From Verrucomicrobiia bacterium (GTDB lineage: Bacteria > Verrucomicrobiota > Verrucomicrobiia > Verrucomicrobiales > DEV007): DNA of 64,000 nucleotides. Position 1 is the first letter of the stretch. Every line of letters starts with the position of its first letter. The position numbers and the translations under genes are program-made. The DNA is taken from contig JAUICH010000011.1 of assembly GCA_030427505.1 (NCBI GenBank), positions 114,673 through 178,672 of the forward strand, given 5' to 3'. A model generated the notes under the pieces. It saw nothing but the letters and a program-made list of their open reading frames with translations. It searched no databases and had not been told where the DNA came from. Positions 39,210 through 46,641 of the stretch are shown here, piece by piece.

Positions 39210-40349
39210 ATGCAACGCCGCCGCTTTGTCAAAAACGGCCTGCTCGGCGCTTCCGCCGGACTGGTTCCCGCCGTGTTCACTTCCCGGACTCAGGCCGCGC
39301 CGGCGGCGAAAGTTCACGAGATCAAGACCATCAGCCAGGAACCCGAATACTACTGCGGCTGGCCGACCGTGGCCCGGCGCTCGAACGGCGAACTGCTGGT
39401 GTCCTGGTCGGGCGGGCGGGAATCTCACGTCTGCCCCTTTGGCCGGGTGGAGATGATGCGCTCCCATGACGATGGCGCGACCTGGACCTGGCCGCGTGTC
39501 CTGCTGGACGGCCCCATCGATGACCGGGACTCCGGCGTCCTGGAAACGGCCACGGGCAGCCTGCTGGTGACCACGTTTACCTCCCTGGCCTATGAGGAAC
39601 GCTACATGAAGGCCGGCAAACCTTACTCCCCGAATTGGGAAGCCGCCAACAACCGGCTGACGGCGGAGCAGCGGCAGGCAGAACTGGGCCAATGGGCCAT
39701 CCGTTCCACTGACGGCGGCATTTCCTGGTCGGCCAGGATTCCCACCCTCGTCAACAGCCCCCACGGTCCCTGCCAACTGGCGGACGGCCGGCTCCTGTAT
39801 GCGGGAAAAGAGCTGTGGACCGAGGAAAAACGCATCGGCGTCGCGGAGTCCACGGACGATGGCCAAACCTGGACCTGGCTGGCGGCCATTCCCGCCCGCG
39901 AGGGGGACACGGTGACGAACTACCATGAGTTGCACGCTGCCGAGTTGCCCTCCGGCCGGATTGTGGTTCACATCCGGAACCACAACCAGACCAACCACCG
40001 GGAAACCCTCCAGACCGAATCGGAGGATGGCGGCAAAACCTGGACCGTTCCCCACTCCATCGATGTCTGGGGGCTGCCCTCTTTCCTTACCCCTCTGAGC
40101 GACGGCCGCTTACTGATGAGCTACGGCTACCGTCGCGAACCCCACGGAAACCAAGCCCGGATCAGCGAAGACGAAGGCCGCTCCTGGTCCGCGCCCCTGA
40201 CGATTTCCAGCGACGGGGCCAACGGAGACCTCGGCTATCCCAGCACAGTGGAACTGGCCGGCCAGAAATTTCTTACAGTCTGGTACGAGCAACGCCCCGA
40301 TTCCCCCAAAGCGGTCCTGAGACAGGCCGTCTGGTCCCTGGAAAGCTAA
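39210..40349 (+). CDS. Tat-exported sialidase/BNR-repeat protein
   Basis: The product has 379 aa. Tat signal at residues 1-31 (MQRRRFVKNGLLGASAGLVP, twin Arg). The body carries five Asp-box (S/T-x-D-x-G-x-T/S-W) repeats: SHDDGATWTW, STDGGISWSA, STDDGQTWTW, SEDGGKTWTV and SEDEGRSWSA, arranged as a six-bladed propeller. The Arg positions of catalytic sialidases can be guessed (VARRSNGELLVSWSGGRE) but the Arg triad is not certain. It may hydrolyse terminal sialic or other acid sugars or only bind. It reads as part of the sugar-release set of the window. Confidence 0.87.
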   Translation: MQRRRFVKNGLLGASAGLVPAVFTSRTQAAPAAKVHEIKTISQEPEYYCGWPTVARRSNGELLVSWSGGRESHVCPFGRVEMMRSHDDGATWTWPRVLLDGPIDDRDSGVLETATGSLLVTTFTSLAYEERYMKAGKPYSPNWEAANNRLTAEQRQAELGQWAIRSTDGGISWSARIPTLVNSPHGPCQLADGRLLYAGKELWTEEKRIGVAESTDDGQTWTWLAAIPAREGDTVTNYHELHAAELPSGRIVVHIRNHNQTNHRETLQTESEDGGKTWTVPHSIDVWGLPSFLTPLSDGRLLMSYGYRREPHGNQARISEDEGRSWSAPLTISSDGANGDLGYPSTVELAGQKFLTVWYEQRPDSPKAVLRQAVWSLES

Positions 40350-40400: not shown

Positions 40401-40820
40401 TCAGTTCGGACTGGAGGAGGAACTACTGCTGGAGCTGGACGGCTGGCCACTGCTGCTGCTGGAACTCGAAGAACTCGACGGCTGACTGCTGCTGCTACTG
40501 GAACTCGAAGAACTCGACGGCTGACTGCTGCTGCTGCTGGAGCTCGAAGAACTCGGCGGCTGGCTGCTGCTGCTACTGGAGCTCGAAGAACTCGACGGCT
40601 GGCTGCTGCTGCTACTGGAGCTCGAAGAACTCGACGGCTGGCTGCTGCTGCTGCTGGAGCTCGAAGAACTCGACGGCTGACTGCTGCTGCTGGAACTCGA
40701 AGAACTCGACGGCTGGCTACTGCTGCTGCTGGAGCTCGAAGAACTCGACGGCTGGCTGCTGCTGCTGCTACTGCTGCTGGAGCTCGAAGAACTGGTTGAT
40801 GAACTGCTGCTTGAACTCAT
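40401..40820 (-). CDS. poly-serine repeat protein
   Basis: The product has 139 aa from the ATG at 40820 (MSSSSSSS); it is about 85% Ser. After an opening Ser run come nine units of Q-P followed by 10-11 Ser (one QPP, one with a Gly before QP), ending SSSPN. The DNA repeats every 36-39 bp, but the copies differ by synonymous AGC/AGT changes and mixed TCN/AGY codons, and the other two frames of this strand are blocked by stops or give unrelated residues. That argues it is a real protein. No signal peptide, membrane segment or Cys is visible. An upstream in-frame ATG at 40859 would add 13 residues. It is divergent from the GT9-like gene at 41020, 199 bp away. Confidence 0.7.
   Translation of the reverse strand: MSSSSSSSTSSSSSSSSSSSSSQPSSSSSSSSSSSQPSSSSSSSSSSQPSSSSSSSSSSSQPSSSSSSSSSSSQPSSSSSSSSSSSQPPSSSSSSSSSSQPSSSSSSSSSSSQPSSSSSSSSSSGQPSSSSSSSSSSPN
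40420..40810. repeat. tandem minisatellite encoding (QP-Ser10-11)n
   Basis: The unit is about 36-39 bp and repeats roughly nine times, with recurring blocks such as GAGCTCGAAGAACTCGACGG on the plus strand. Length can vary in multiples of three without frame loss because the unit is a multiple of three, so length polymorphism between strains would not destroy the gene. Confidence 0.85.
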
Positions 40821-41019
40821 TGGATCTACCTGTGTTTCTCGAAAATACTTCCTTCCCAACAGACCCCGGCATGCCCCTGGCTACATTGCTCGCTTCCGCC
40901 CTAACAAAGCGGCTTTACATCCCGCCATTCTAACAATTCATATATGCTTGTGCTGCGGTGGAATCAACACTAAGAATCTCCAAATGGGTCTTCCCCCGGG
41001 GCCAGGATTTGATTGAGGA

Positions 41020-42018
41020 ATGCCTAAACATCTGATTCTTAAGAATTTCCAGTCCCCAGGAGACATCGTCATGCTTACTGGAGCTGTCCGCGATTTACAT
41101 ACCACCTACCCCGGAAAGTTCGTCACAGACGTCAGAAGCTCGGCTCCCGCGCTTTGGGAAAACAACCCTTTCTTGACCGCGTTGGACAGTTCCGGCGGAA
41201 AGGCAGAGGAGATCGACTGTCGCTATCCGCTAATCCACCAGAGCAATCAGAAACCCTATCATTTCCTCCATGGGTTCACCCGTTTTCTATCCTCCCAGCT
41301 AAATATCTCCCTGGAACCGGTTGCGTTTAAGGGGGACATCCACCTTTCCCCCTTGGAGAAGTCCTGGATATCTCAGGTGCACGAGATCGTTGGAGCCGAC
41401 GTGCCCTACTGGATTGTGGCCGCGGGAGGGAAACACGATTTCACTATCAAGTGGTGGCCCAAAGAACGCTACCAGGCCGTGGTCGACCATTTCAGGGGCC
41501 GGATTGTGTTTGTGCAAGTCGGTGAGAGCCATCACCATCACCCACCGCTGAACGGCGTCATCGACCTGCGTGGAAAGACCGATCTACGTCAGTTGGTCAG
41601 GCTCGTCTACCACGCGGCGGGGGTGATCAGTCCCGTCACCCTCCTCATGCATCTGGCGGCGGCGGTGGAGACCAAACCCGGCCGGCCCAAAAACCGGGCC
41701 GCCGTGATCATCGCGGGAGGCCGCGAACCCACCCACTGGGAAGCCTACCCCCACCACCAGTTCATCCACACCATCGGTGCCCTGTGGTGTTGCGACAACG
41801 GCGGCTGCTGGAAATCCAGGACCCTGCCCCTGGGGGACGGAGACGAAAAAGACCAGGCGGAGCACCTCTGCGTCAACGTAACCGGCCAACTCCCCCACTG
41901 CATGCATCTCATCACCCCGGAGGAGGTGATCCAGCGCGTGGAACTCTACTTTCAGGGCGGCGCCTTGACCGATCTAGACCCGGCTTTACGTCCGCGAATC
42001 CCCTGTTGGAACGACTAA
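41020..42018 (+). CDS. glycosyltransferase family 9-like protein
   Basis: The product has 332 aa. It follows the ADP-heptose/GT9 pattern: MPKHLILKNFQSPGDIVMLTGAV (GD-I-V-M-L loop that replaces the classic G-D-x-x-x-T), then an N-terminal Rossmann domain, a strand YWIVAAGGKHDFTIKWWPKERY (the G and W-P-K-E-R-Y are sugar-nucleotide-binding residues of the family), HHHHPPLNGVIDLRGKTDLRQL, and AGVISPVTLLMHLAAAVE in the C-terminal domain. A C-terminal Cys-rich segment (CCDNGGCW and LCVNV) is unusual. It is probably cytoplasmic, transfers a sugar to an acceptor, and is the first gene of an operon-like pair with the fusion gene. A short GAGGA lies just before the start. Confidence 0.8.
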   Translation: MPKHLILKNFQSPGDIVMLTGAVRDLHTTYPGKFVTDVRSSAPALWENNPFLTALDSSGGKAEEIDCRYPLIHQSNQKPYHFLHGFTRFLSSQLNISLEPVAFKGDIHLSPLEKSWISQVHEIVGADVPYWIVAAGGKHDFTIKWWPKERYQAVVDHFRGRIVFVQVGESHHHHPPLNGVIDLRGKTDLRQLVRLVYHAAGVISPVTLLMHLAAAVETKPGRPKNRAAVIIAGGREPTHWEAYPHHQFIHTIGALWCCDNGGCWKSRTLPLGDGDEKDQAEHLCVNVTGQLPHCMHLITPEEVIQRVELYFQGGALTDLDPALRPRIPCWND

Positions 42019-42041
42019 GACCCACCCTCTCATCTTTTCGT

Positions 42042-42047
42042 GGAGGA
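42042..42047 (+). promoter_or_regulatory. Shine-Dalgarno site deciding a TTG start
   Basis: GGAGGA at 42042-42047 lies four bases before TTG at 42052-42054. No comparable site serves the in-frame GTG at 42040, so the TTG is preferred for the fusion gene. Confidence 0.5.
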
Positions 42048-42051
42048 ACCT

Positions 42052-43476
42052 TTGAACGACATCACCATCCGCTTCACCGGTCTGCGGCGCTCCGGCAATC
42101 ACGCGGTGCTAAACTGGATTGCGAGCCTCTTTGACGGGGAGGTTTGCTTCATCAACGACGCAAACCATCAGGCGGAAATCTTACCGGATCAGGTCAGCGA
42201 TCCCCTGCCCTCGTTAAAGGGCCGGCCAGCCACCACCCTGGACAGCCGAAAGGCCCTGTTACTCTACAGCCTGGAAGACATTCGCCTGATCGAAGCCGCC
42301 CGCTACACGCTTCCCGGTGAGGCGTCGCAACGAGCACGAAAGAGCACGAACGTGCTGCTTCTGCGCGATCCCTACAACACCTTCGCCAGCCGGCTTCAAA
42401 TGCTTCGGGACCGGCCGGCCAACGGCTTTGTCCGGAGCTTTCTGATTCCGGACAGAGATGGACGGACTCAGCTCCGGTCTCTCTGGAAACGGTACGCCAG
42501 AGAGTTCCTCCGCCGCTCGTCGCGCCTGGGGCCGGACCTGGTGGCCATCAACTACAACCGGTGGCGGGTGGACCAGCCATACCGGAAACAGCTCGCGGCC
42601 GCCCTGGGAGGCCACTACACGGAAGAGCACCTCCACCGCGTGGCTGCCTATGGCTTTGGCAGTTCGTTTGACGCCCACCACTTTGACGCCGCCGCCTCCC
42701 AGATGAACCTGTCCGAAAGGTGGAAGCATTTTGTTGGCGACGACTTCTTTCTCTCTCTGATCGACGACGGAGAGCTTCACGATTTGTCCGATGAGATTTT
42801 TGGTCCCGTCATTCCGGACCGGCCCGCCACCTTGACCCGCCGCCTGGCCAGGCTCCCCATGCCGAAGGATCCTCCGCGGGCCAGGCTCAACCACCAGGAA
42901 GCCATCCGCCAGGTCTTCGAGGACCACGCTTCCGGCTTCGCCGATTCCCCCATCCTCATCGAGACCGGTTGCGGGAAATCCACCCAGGCTCTGGGAGAGT
43001 TGGCGGCCAAGCTGGGCGGCAGAGCCTACTCCTGCGACATTGACGCCGGCAAGATTGACCGGTTGAAGGAAAAACACCGAGATTCGCTGACAACCGTTCG
43101 CTTCCTGGCGGGAGACAGCTTGACCACTTTGCGCGAGATTCTGACCACCTTTACCGAAGCCATCGATTTTGTCCTCCTGGACTCGGCGCCCTCCGCCCAC
43201 CACACTTTTCAGGAGTTCCAACTACTGGAATCACGGCTACGCCCCGGAGCCTGTTTATTGATCGACAATGCCGCCACCCAGCTGACCGCGGACCTCCGTT
43301 CGCCCTGCCGCAAAGGAAAGGTGGTGGTCGAGTACTTGAAAGCTTCCCCCCACTGGAAAGTTCTTCCCAAACCGGACTGGGGAGACTCCATGGTTCTGGC
43401 CCTGTACCACGACCTGCCCGTCTATCCGGACATCAGCTACACTCACCCGTCTTTGGTCAGGCAATCCATCGCCTGA
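42052..43476 (+). CDS. sulfotransferase-like and SAM methyltransferase fusion protein
   Basis: The product has 474 aa from TTG 42052. The N-terminal half (to residue about 250) opens with ITIRFTGLRRSGNHAVLNWI. The R-x-S-G-N-H-A loop takes the PAPS-binding site of sulfotransferases, and NVLLLRDPYNTFASRLQML is the second sulfotransferase signature (3'-phosphate-binding). The C-terminal half (residues about 285-450) is a SAM methyltransferase: ILIETGCGKSTQ near residue 304, YSCDIDAGKI, LLDSAPSAHHTF and GACLLIDNA. The two folds are usually separate genes. It begins 33 bp after the GT9-like gene and ends 14 bp from the convergent pseudokinase. I infer a decorating enzyme that sulfates and methylates one acceptor. 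Confidence 0.78.
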   Translation: MNDITIRFTGLRRSGNHAVLNWIASLFDGEVCFINDANHQAEILPDQVSDPLPSLKGRPATTLDSRKALLLYSLEDIRLIEAARYTLPGEASQRARKSTNVLLLRDPYNTFASRLQMLRDRPANGFVRSFLIPDRDGRTQLRSLWKRYAREFLRRSSRLGPDLVAINYNRWRVDQPYRKQLAAALGGHYTEEHLHRVAAYGFGSSFDAHHFDAAASQMNLSERWKHFVGDDFFLSLIDDGELHDLSDEIFGPVIPDRPATLTRRLARLPMPKDPPRARLNHQEAIRQVFEDHASGFADSPILIETGCGKSTQALGELAAKLGGRAYSCDIDAGKIDRLKEKHRDSLTTVRFLAGDSLTTLREILTTFTEAIDFVLLDSAPSAHHTFQEFQLLESRLRPGACLLIDNAATQLTADLRSPCRKGKVVVEYLKASPHWKVLPKPDWGDSMVLALYHDLPVYPDISYTHPSLVRQSIA

Positions 43477-43490
43477 CCTCTAAAGACCAG

Positions 43491-45692
43491 CTACTTCGGC
43501 TCATTCCCCAGGGACACCGGCTTCGAGCGTTCCTCCCCGGCGATGTTTACCGGGGGAAGCGGGTCTTCAAACTTCAGTCCGGTTTCGCCGGCGGCAAAGC
43601 GCAGGTTGGAACCCGCAAAGGGCGCCTCCTCCACCTTTTCGACTTTAAACCGGCACCCTTTCACCTCGGGTGGCGACGGAGTTGTCCCCATCAAGTATAA
43701 CTTCCTGTCGATGGAACTCCCCAAATTCAAATCATTGTCCTTCGGAAAAGTGCAATTGTGAAAGACGCACTCATTCGTGGCAATCAGCACGCTGGGCGGG
43801 ATCTCACAATCCACGAAGAGGCACCGTTCGATGGTCCGCCACTCGCTGCCCGATTCGATGGCCGGATCTCCAATGTAGACCATGGGCCGGAAGTTCACGT
43901 TCAGGAAGGTGCACTTCTGGATCTTGACGCCGACGGTCTTGGTATGCCACCTCTCGAAGAAGCTTCCGGAAATCGCGCAATTCGTGATCTCCCACTTGGC
44001 GGAGTACTCCTTGACGGTCCACCAACCCTCTTTAGCTAGGCTACAGCGGTTCAGCAGGGAATCCTTGAGGTAGTACTTCCCATGAAGATTGGAGGTGAGA
44101 ACTACTTTCTGGAACCGGACATGATCGGCCGAAAACTGCCCCGCGTCCAGATAGACTCCGCCGTTCGAGATTTCCACTCCCGGTAGCGCCACAATCTCCG
44201 CCGGAATGCGGTCTTCATCTCCATCCCCGTGACTGCGGTCCCCTGCCGTAATCTTGAGTCCCAGCAGATCGTACCGGCCCGGGTTCAATACAATGCGGCT
44301 GGTCAGCGGCCCCGCCACGAGCAAAGGATTGGCCGGCGCACTGCTTTCCGGGCGCTCGGGCTCGGGTGGCGTTTCCAGGCGAACCTCTCCAGAGACATCC
44401 GCGACAACCGGTTCCGCACGCTTCCGGTCCTGCCGTCCATGAGTCCAGGCTTTCCAGATGGACTCCACCCCCCACAGAAACACGAAGATGCCCAGGGCCG
44501 CCACGAGCACATAAGCCACCCGGATTGAAGGCGCCGCGGGCGCTCCGGATGGATCACTTCCCTCTTTTTCGAACTCCTCTCCAGCCAGCTGGCTATCTTC
44601 TTCTTCGGTACCTAAACCGAGCACGGCTTCCAAGGTATCGGCATCCAGTTCTTCGTCCAACTCGTCATCGAGATCGCCGTCCTCCACTTCCTCGAAACCG
44701 AAGTTCTTCTCGTCCAACCACTCCTCGTCGTCACCTTCGTCTTCGTCCTCTTCGCTTCCGAATTCCCCGAAATTCGTTTCTTCCTCCGCGACGTAAGATT
44801 CCTCGCCAAACTCCCCTCCTTCGAAGCTTTCGTCGTCCTCTCCGTGGCGAACGGCCAGACTCTCAGCTTCGAGGCACTTCTTGAACTCCTTCAGTTGAGT
44901 CAGCAACTCTTCGAAATCTTTGAAGCGCTCTTCGCGATCTGGGTTCATCCCCCGCCCAATGATGGCATCGATAAAATCCAGGATAGCGGGTTCCTCTTCA
45001 CCTTCCATCCTTTCGGCGAAGGGCTGGGCATCCTCGTCCGGCGCTTCGCCCGCCAGAAGGTGATACCAAAGCGCCACCAGCGAAAAGATGTCGGCCTGCT
45101 CGTTCAGGACCACATTGGGCGAATCCATTTCCGGCGCGCGGTAATAGCGCACGTCAAATTCCTCCGTATCACCAACGGAACCCGAGTATCGCTGTGGGTC
45201 ACCATCCCGCTCCAGACGAAAGTCGGTCACTTTTACCGAGATCTCGTCCTGATCCGACCCGGTCCCCTTGGTGACTCTTACGAAGACGTTGGTTGGCTTT
45301 AGGTTCAGGTGCAGCCGTCCGTTCTTGCGAGCATACAGAAGCGCCCGGGCCACCTGCTGAACGATCTCCAGGGACTCCTCAATCTCTATGACCCCCTGGT
45401 CCTCTATGAATTGTTCCAGATTTTTGCCTTCGAGAAGTTCGGTCACCACATAGAATTGCCCGCGCACGGCGTCACACTCAGTGGTTAGCGCAATGCCCGG
45501 GTGGTTTAGAACCGCCAATTTCTGGACGTCTTCGTGAAAGTCCTCGACGGCACCTTCACTCTCCGGCGCGTAGCGATGGAAAAACTTAATCGCCACCGGC
45601 TTGGCCATATGCCTTTCCACGGCCCGGTAAACCGCTCCCCGCGGTCCCAGTCCCAAAAGCTCAAAATTCCTGTAGCCTTCGAGTTCTACCAT
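43491..45692 (-). CDS. membrane pseudokinase with beta-helix-like extracellular domain
   Basis: The product has 733 aa. Residues 1-280 are a serine/threonine kinase fold: GLGPRGAVY (14-22), ATP-binding K36 in VAIKF, then HLNLKPTN at 128-135, where N130 replaces the catalytic Asp of HRD. The metal-binding D157 remains but is followed by F-R (DFR) instead of DFG. APE is at 186-188. An acidic linker (residues about 285-400) is rich in Glu and Asp. One membrane segment lies at about 410-432 (VAYVLVAALGIFVFLWGVESI). The outer part (450-733) repeats like a right-handed beta-helix, with many Cys (CTFLN, CLFVDCE, CVFHNCTF). ATP transfer is doubtful, binding possible. Confidence 0.82.
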   Translation of the reverse strand: MVELEGYRNFELLGLGPRGAVYRAVERHMAKPVAIKFFHRYAPESEGAVEDFHEDVQKLAVLNHPGIALTTECDAVRGQFYVVTELLEGKNLEQFIEDQGVIEIEESLEIVQQVARALLYARKNGRLHLNLKPTNVFVRVTKGTGSDQDEISVKVTDFRLERDGDPQRYSGSVGDTEEFDVRYYRAPEMDSPNVVLNEQADIFSLVALWYHLLAGEAPDEDAQPFAERMEGEEEPAILDFIDAIIGRGMNPDREERFKDFEELLTQLKEFKKCLEAESLAVRHGEDDESFEGGEFGEESYVAEEETNFGEFGSEEDEDEGDDEEWLDEKNFGFEEVEDGDLDDELDEELDADTLEAVLGLGTEEEDSQLAGEEFEKEGSDPSGAPAAPSIRVAYVLVAALGIFVFLWGVESIWKAWTHGRQDRKRAEPVVADVSGEVRLETPPEPERPESSAPANPLLVAGPLTSRIVLNPGRYDLLGLKITAGDRSHGDGDEDRIPAEIVALPGVEISNGGVYLDAGQFSADHVRFQKVVLTSNLHGKYYLKDSLLNRCSLAKEGWWTVKEYSAKWEITNCAISGSFFERWHTKTVGVKIQKCTFLNVNFRPMVYIGDPAIESGSEWRTIERCLFVDCEIPPSVLIATNECVFHNCTFPKDNDLNLGSSIDRKLYLMGTTPSPPEVKGCRFKVEKVEEAPFAGSNLRFAAGETGLKFEDPLPPVNIAGEERSKPVSLGNEPK

Positions 45693-46140: not shown

Positions 46141-46641
46141 ATGAGTTCCCGCAACTGGAAAGACTGGCTATACGAGCACCGTTCCAGGCTGATGCTGTAC
46201 GCGCGGCAACAAACCCGCACGGAAGCGGATGCCGAAGACGTGTTGCAAAACGCCATTCTGAAATCCTGGAAGACTCAAGAAGGCAAAATTGACGACGGAA
46301 CTTTGGCGCTCGTTTACGCGAACATTCGCCGCTGTGCCATCGACCAGGCCCGGAGCAATCAACGCCGCGTAATTCGCGAGGAAAAAGCCGTCGCGGAAGC
46401 TGGTGAGCCGGTTTCCTGGTTCGAACTGCCGGAGGACGACGAGTCCCGCCGTCTTCAGGTGGCTCTCTCCAATATTCCGGAGAAGTACCGCGAGGTGATT
46501 TCCTTGAAAATCTGGGGTGACCTGACGTTCGCCCAGATCGGAGACTCCCTGAACATTTCGCCGAACACGGCTGCTTCCCGCTATCGCTACGGCTTGGCGG
46601 CTCTAAAGACCCGGCTCGAAATGGAGCCCGCGGAATATTGA
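46141..46641 (+). CDS. RNA polymerase sigma-70 family (ECF-like) sigma factor
   Basis: The product has 166 aa, right for an ECF sigma. Region 2 reads RLMLYARQQTRTEADAEDVLQNAILKSWKTQ, with RRCAIDQARSNQRR as its end (the -10 recognition helix). Region 4 is ALSNIPEKYREVISLKIWGDLTFAQIGDSLNISPNTAASRYRYGLAALKTRL, the helix-turn-helix that reads the -35 box; I list the motif in parts because it is long. No extra C-terminal domain is seen. The opposing, convergent genes at 46973 and 48175 include a membrane protein with a cytoplasmic N-terminus that may be its anti-sigma factor. A bidirectional terminator lies between. Confidence 0.9.
   Translation: MSSRNWKDWLYEHRSRLMLYARQQTRTEADAEDVLQNAILKSWKTQEGKIDDGTLALVYANIRRCAIDQARSNQRRVIREEKAVAEAGEPVSWFELPEDDESRRLQVALSNIPEKYREVISLKIWGDLTFAQIGDSLNISPNTAASRYRYGLAALKTRLEMEPAEY

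Follow-up and report, generated by a model that had tools for sequence, protein, structure and literature searches.

A protein built almost entirely of serine is encoded in a Verrucomicrobiia bacterium (assembly GCA_030427505.1, contig JAUICH010000011.1, positions 114,673 to 178,672; this stretch of 64,000 nucleotides is called the window), divergently from a GT9 glycosyltransferase and a two-domain protein with a modelled sulfotransferase fold and a methyltransferase domain. The serine of this poly-serine (poly-Ser) protein is kept at the protein level, and the GT9 family is linked to poly-Ser genes far above background across nine bacterial groups. We consider it fairly probable that the poly-Ser protein is an acceptor, that the GT9 enzyme adds a sugar to its serines and that the second protein sulfates and methylates these sugars. 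The best reading, and the simplest account, is likely a dedicated cytoplasmic O-glycosylation of homopolymeric serine with exchangeable second-step enzymes, in which we infer acceptor, donor sugar, sulfation, methylation and function alike. A sequence-only reading of the window had known of no such system, and a literature search on poly-serine terms, whose scope left out bioRxiv preprints and most subscription papers, found none described. Together the data suggest a widespread, apparently undescribed mode of protein coating.

The linkage emerged when 84,980 species genomes were scanned with a GT9 alignment, which gave 191 confirmed relatives; the best 80 of these 191 form loci L042-L121, and all locus counts are limited to the flanking DNA retained around each GT9 gene. 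An open reading frame (ORF) with at least 14 serines in 20 residues is present in 43 of the 80 loci. Because the antisense strand of acidic stretches can imitate poly-Ser, as in the serine-rich open frame at 44515-44793 (+) of the window, which lies antisense to an acidic stretch of a kinase gene and is a trap for poly-Ser scans, a strict recount demanded at least three TCN and at least three AGY serine codons. Such mixed-codon ORFs occur in 41/80 loci and within 1.5 kb of the GT9 gene in 26/80. Among loci of at least 18 kb they are found in 22 of 37, compared with none of 40 control stretches of 20 kb, hand-picked on contigs of 18 genomes having such loci. Within 1.5 kb the count is 14/34 versus 0/30 for ordinary PF01075 loci (one locus each from 30 of the 34 genomes), and ribosomal L2 control loci of about 3 kb likewise give 0/30. 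Lowering the threshold to at least 12 serines in 20 yields 25/37 loci versus 4/40 controls; a threshold of at least 10 was dropped, as it gave no separation (28/37 versus 28/40). By group, poly-Ser is present in 12/13 loci of Acidobacteriota, 8/11 of Gemmatimonadota, 3/3 of Planctomycetota, 3/5 of Bacteroidota, 3/8 of Proteobacteria, one of one each in Nitrospirota, SAR324 and UBP12, one of two ungrouped loci and 0/1 in Armatimonadota. The short GT9 form, to which the window enzyme belongs, has poly-Ser in 38/60 loci (21/27 among those of at least 18 kb), while the long form, whose C-terminus is extended by 150 residues or more, has it in just 3/20.

The content of shared gene-rich islands might also bring the two genes together; GT9 would then build a polysaccharide, either lipid-linked or on the surface, and poly-Ser tracts would serve as flexible linkers of surface proteins. 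GT9 enzymes of established function are mostly lipopolysaccharide (LPS) heptosyltransferases, and WaaF and WaaC are among the top structural matches of the GT9 model. Polyserine linkers are reported in Saccharophagus degradans. However, the poly-Ser genes are absent from the 30 ordinary GT9 loci, they abut this GT9 in four phyla, some being small stand-alone ORFs with nothing to link (L065, L072 and the window), and the carrier proteins vary while the serine tract is their common element. We regard this explanation as unlikely.

The poly-Ser ORF itself had been described from sequence as a 139-residue series of QP-Ser units maintained through mixed synonymous codons, and codon analysis confirms this. 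Nearly all residues are serine, encoded by a mixture of TCN and AGY codons, between an N-terminal MSSSSSSSTSS and a C-terminal SSSPN; from a TTG start the ORF would be longer (40401-40859, minus strand). That it is a minisatellite by-product, staying open by chance with no protein made, had been raised as a caveat. The minisatellite origin is real, as the clean 39-bp tandem array demonstrates, and the array can be read without a stop in further frames too. No protein homologue was retrieved with the poly-Ser sequence, a query whose low complexity makes the result uninformative, and the ORF carries no export signal. Chance, however, does not account for the way in which serine is kept: where the eight full units deviate from the consensus in their ten leading codons, 6 of the 7 changes are synonymous, compared with 28% expected (P 0.0025; transitions weighted by 4). 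The C-terminal Ser10 outside the units retains every serine with 14 of the 24 bases of its first eight codons changed relative to the repeat. Moreover, stand-alone mixed-codon poly-Ser ORFs recur next to the same enzyme. The serine run is more than a chance product of the array, and we hold an untranslated by-product to be quite improbable. A nucleotide search of the 6.41-Mb genome gave no second match to the ORF below E 0.05, and the protein query against 25 whole genomes gave no match, which at this low complexity is uninformative.

The GT9-like assignment of the divergent neighbour is borne out by a PF01075 match of 32.5 bits (cut-off 22), and the same family is matched by all 19 sequences of the GT9 alignment (A1; E ≤ 0.01). 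Asp15 and Lys144 are invariant in 81/81 GT9 sequences, and the four cysteines Cys257, Cys263, Cys284 and Cys294 are present in 80 of them, with a spacing of 5-20-9 in 70. Residue 1 of the GT9 model aligns to residue 95 of TibC (4rap), the protein beginning with the catalytic domain, and Asp15 falls near TibC Asp110, judged from the aligned range only. By analogy with TibC, Asp15 would be the base and the four cysteines would hold a metal, while GT9 family membership points to ADP-heptose as the probable donor. There are 4,523 homologues, and those that are named among the 120 rows viewed are usually called 'ADP-heptose:LPS heptosyltransferase'. No NCBIfam family scored above its cut-off, heptosyltransferase I reaching 17.9 bits where 185.3 are required. 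Searches of PDB sequences with the GT9 and the sulfotransferase-methyltransferase proteins and with the A1 profile returned nothing relevant, and plasmid and phage collections contained no GT9 match, so that a home on mobile elements is unsupported.

Table 1. Features of the poly-Ser/GT9 locus (window coordinates)
Feature	Position	Strand	Description
Poly-Ser ORF, proposed acceptor	40401..40820	-	139 aa from an ATG, with nine QP-Ser10-11 units
39-bp tandem array within the poly-Ser ORF	40438..40769		8.6 copies, 92% matches
Divergent intergenic region, poly-Ser/GT9 genes	40821..41019		199 bp
GT9 glycosyltransferase, proposed poly-serine O-glycosyltransferase	41020..42018	+	332 aa, PF01075, divergent from poly-Ser gene
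Two-domain protein	42040..43476	+	GTG start; residues ~1-260 sulfotransferase fold, ~300-440 Methyltransf_24

The third protein had been read as a sulfotransferase-methyltransferase fusion, and both halves agree with this. The C-terminal half matches Methyltransf_24 (PF13578) with 47.8 bits (cut-off 26.3), and the predicted model of the N-terminal half has a sulfotransferase fold, with no match to Pfam sulfotransferase profiles at E ≤ 1. In this half R17, S18, G19 and H21 as well as R109, D110 and S117 are invariant, residues that presumably correspond to the two phosphate-binding motifs of 3'-phosphoadenosine-5'-phosphosulfate (PAPS) sulfotransferases. A TTG codon at 42052, preceded by GGAGG, offers an alternative start and is perhaps the true one. 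Across 95 relatives a GT9 match is present in 8/10 genomes with the sulfotransferase versus 11/85 others, a count that includes some weak or fragmentary GT9 matches. In L083/G028 one continuous frame encodes both GT9 and sulfotransferase, with a poly-Ser gene running divergently next to it; elsewhere GT9 is fused to methyltransferases. Association and fusions make it likely that the GT9 enzyme acts on the neighbouring poly-Ser protein. A Methyltransf_24 protein with a GT9 match below cut-off was scanned at L076:16178-17716, and members of its cluster lie near GT9 in L042, L063, L083, L118 and L224.

The divergent order of poly-Ser and GT9 genes recurs in L067, L078, L083 and L216, and L214 has a poly-Ser gene and a sulfotransferase homologue in divergent orientation. 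All three parts were seen together in the window and L083/G028 only, and the exact trio is therefore not general; other lineages have different second enzymes beside GT9. Thus, the earlier notion of a dedicated glycosylation set holds for the GT9/poly-Ser linkage across phyla but not for a fixed trio, and the conservation it called for extends to the gene order of four loci, with the complete set in one relative. The L216 tract is short (13 serines in 20), and L110, which is close to L216, has the same tract with an in-frame stop at the position of the L216 start.

The proteins that carry the tracts are diverse. Carriers resembling lipoproteins of the twin-arginine translocation (Tat) pathway (RR-x-F-L ... 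LAAC followed by serine, custom regular expression) account for 17/43 loci, the signal preceding the poly-Ser part in many loci of Acidobacteriota and Gemmatimonadota. RHS carriers starting with MSS are found in L214 and L216 (Pfam RHS match); L083 and L223 resemble RHS by eye only, L083 having no Pfam match. A poly-serine leader opens the RHS-type proteins at L214:5914, L216:10525 and L223:18470 (the last by eye), with no signal peptide visible. Further carriers are Laminin_G_3 and Big_9 proteins, and Pfam assigned no domain in 7/10 carriers of one set and 7/9 of another. Possibly tail-like proteins with serine tracts lie near GT9 in L059, L060, L077 and L084; we take L060:7948-9312 to resemble a phage-type tail sheath, the Pfam scan of its N-terminal part giving no match. 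A DUF6519 protein near GT9 (L073:4349-8047) reaches at most 13 serines in 20 and is outside the 41 and 43 counted loci. In the genome of the window, a single frame at contig C46:3946-42438 (L271-L273) stays open for 12,831 codons and contains numerous RHS repeats but no serine tract, and the stretches around the RHS genes of this genome contain no ORF with at least 12 serines in 20.

Several observations weigh against the proposed glycosylation. The GT9 model is nearer to plain heptosyltransferases than to TibC, and TibC is absent from the matches of the A1 profile search of PDB sequences. For the supply of ADP-heptose, the sole find is an HldE-II-like gene scoring below the family cut-off. 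By eye, the start of the window poly-Ser protein resembles neither a Tat nor a Sec signal, in line with the lack of an export signal remarked in the sequence-only reading, and neither the ORF nor its upstream extension contains the RRxF/L motif and lipobox cysteine ahead of the serine tract. In the flank examined 39/80 loci lack a tract, a shortfall due in part to the long GT9 form, and Verrucomicrobiota, the phylum of the window, is the weakest of the larger groups (8/34). The loci are also interrelated, which deprives the P values of independence; grouped at 80% identity they form 60 clusters, 27 of them with poly-Ser. Finally, a kinase-like cluster, assigned from one scanned member (PF00069), adjoins GT9 in ten loci, mostly of Gemmatimonadota, and seven of the ten have poly-Ser.

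Owing to this last observation phosphorylation remains a rival, in which a Ser/Thr kinase encoded nearby would be the chief enzyme acting on the tract, with a secondary role for GT9. In the window such a kinase gene (43491-45692, minus strand) lies 14 bp from the end of the sulfotransferase-methyltransferase gene. The HRDxKPxN kinase motif, which misses the ten-locus cluster, is nevertheless found within 3 kb in 2/41 poly-Ser loci versus 15/39 others and goes with the long GT9 form (14/20 versus 4/60 short-form loci). Among the 13 Acidobacteriota loci a kinase is detected by either criterion in L045 and L079 only, compared with poly-Ser in 12. We therefore judge phosphorylation as the main role to be very improbable, while the kinase-like gene of the L043 cluster is a possible third player. 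This gene (L043:3532-4356) has cluster members in L044-L046, L048, L049, L051, L053, L056 and L058, at a median of 23 bp from GT9, and these loci mostly also contain a Tat-lipoprotein-like poly-Ser gene.

The window kinase is acidic in its middle part, shows a weak beta-helix match at its C-terminus, and adjoins an extracytoplasmic function (ECF)-type sigma factor (46141-46641, plus strand); kinases and ECF sigma factors recur next to the long GT9 form in Verrucomicrobiota. In L113:9914-12559 a long GT9 is fused to Mannosyl_trans3, with an ECF sigma factor on one side and a WD40-repeat kinase on the other (Pfam, L113 alone), and L075, L103, L104, L111 and L115 share this setting by ORF length and neighbours or cluster membership. 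Immediately preceding the locus in window coordinates, 39210-40349 (plus strand) encodes a BNR/sialidase-like protein whose start looks Tat-like by eye. No sigma-70-type consensus was matched within the divergent intergenic region, a promoter and terminator scan gave nothing exceeding chance, and an Rfam scan of the window gave nothing reaching the gathering score.

In the glycosylation model, GT9 would attach a sugar, probably heptose, to serine hydroxyls in the cytoplasm, and the sulfotransferase-methyltransferase protein would then sulfate and methylate those sugars. Dense glycosylation of homopolymeric serine could produce a stiff rod, anionic here, as a bacterial mucin-like or proteoglycan-like element. 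The Tat-lipoprotein-like signals preceding the poly-Ser part in other loci suggest that the coated protein would be exported via Tat after glycosylation. As no export signal is seen in the window, its rod may be a cytoplasmic primer, may be exported by some other route or may represent the remnant leader of an RHS-type protein. A broader version, to which we give somewhat less than an even chance, is a portable glyco-scaffold: a horizontally spread GT9 family with a conserved four-cysteine metal finger would coat any protein that gains poly-Ser, be it a Tat lipoprotein, an RHS giant, a tail-like protein or a free rod, and lineage-specific partners would sulfate, methylate, mannosylate or pyruvylate the coat to give bacterial mucins and proteoglycans. 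If true, this would provide a function for a large GT9 family usually named after LPS synthesis, a reason why many environmental bacteria retain long serine homopolymers, and a simple means, consisting of just an enzyme gene and a poly-Ser tag, of glycosylating proteins densely.

Among known enzymes, WaaC and WaaF share the fold and Pfam family of the window GT9, which differs as a distinct subfamily far under the NCBIfam cut-offs and linked to poly-Ser genes. Compared with tyrosylprotein and other PAPS sulfotransferases, the second protein lacks a Pfam sulfotransferase match and is fused to a methyltransferase, and to GT9 in relatives. In TibC/Aah-type systems the enzyme gene stands next to the substrate gene, and the locus resembles them in fold, in a putative four-cysteine metal site and in the position of the enzyme gene beside a proposed serine substrate gene. 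These bacterial autotransporter heptosyltransferases have a GT9-like GT-B fold with a four-cysteine metal site and modify serines of a partner protein (PMC4358343). They possess an N-terminal beta-barrel domain of about 97 residues, a catalytic Asp, a nucleotide-binding Lys and an iron finger in the C-lobe, form a dodecamer and transfer heptose, and the residue numbers of TibC give a cysteine spacing of 2-15-11 (PMC4358343). The window GT9 has no N-terminal beta-barrel and by this feature falls outside the TibC family; its cysteine spacing, compared by sequence position, also differs. Moreover, the substrate here would be homopolymeric serine, in lipoproteins, in RHS proteins or alone, whereas that of TibC is a beta-helix autotransporter. 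Streptococcal serine-rich repeat adhesins are O-glycosylated in the cytoplasm by GtfA/GtfB before export via the accessory SecA2/SecY2, with locus-specific extra enzymes. The system described here differs from them in using GT9, in a substrate of almost nothing but serine where theirs has spaced serine repeats, in having Tat-lipoprotein-like signals or none, and in occurring in other phyla. It shares with them the locus-specific further enzymes and, as proposed here, an O-glycosylation that takes place in the cytoplasm and is dedicated to one serine-rich protein.

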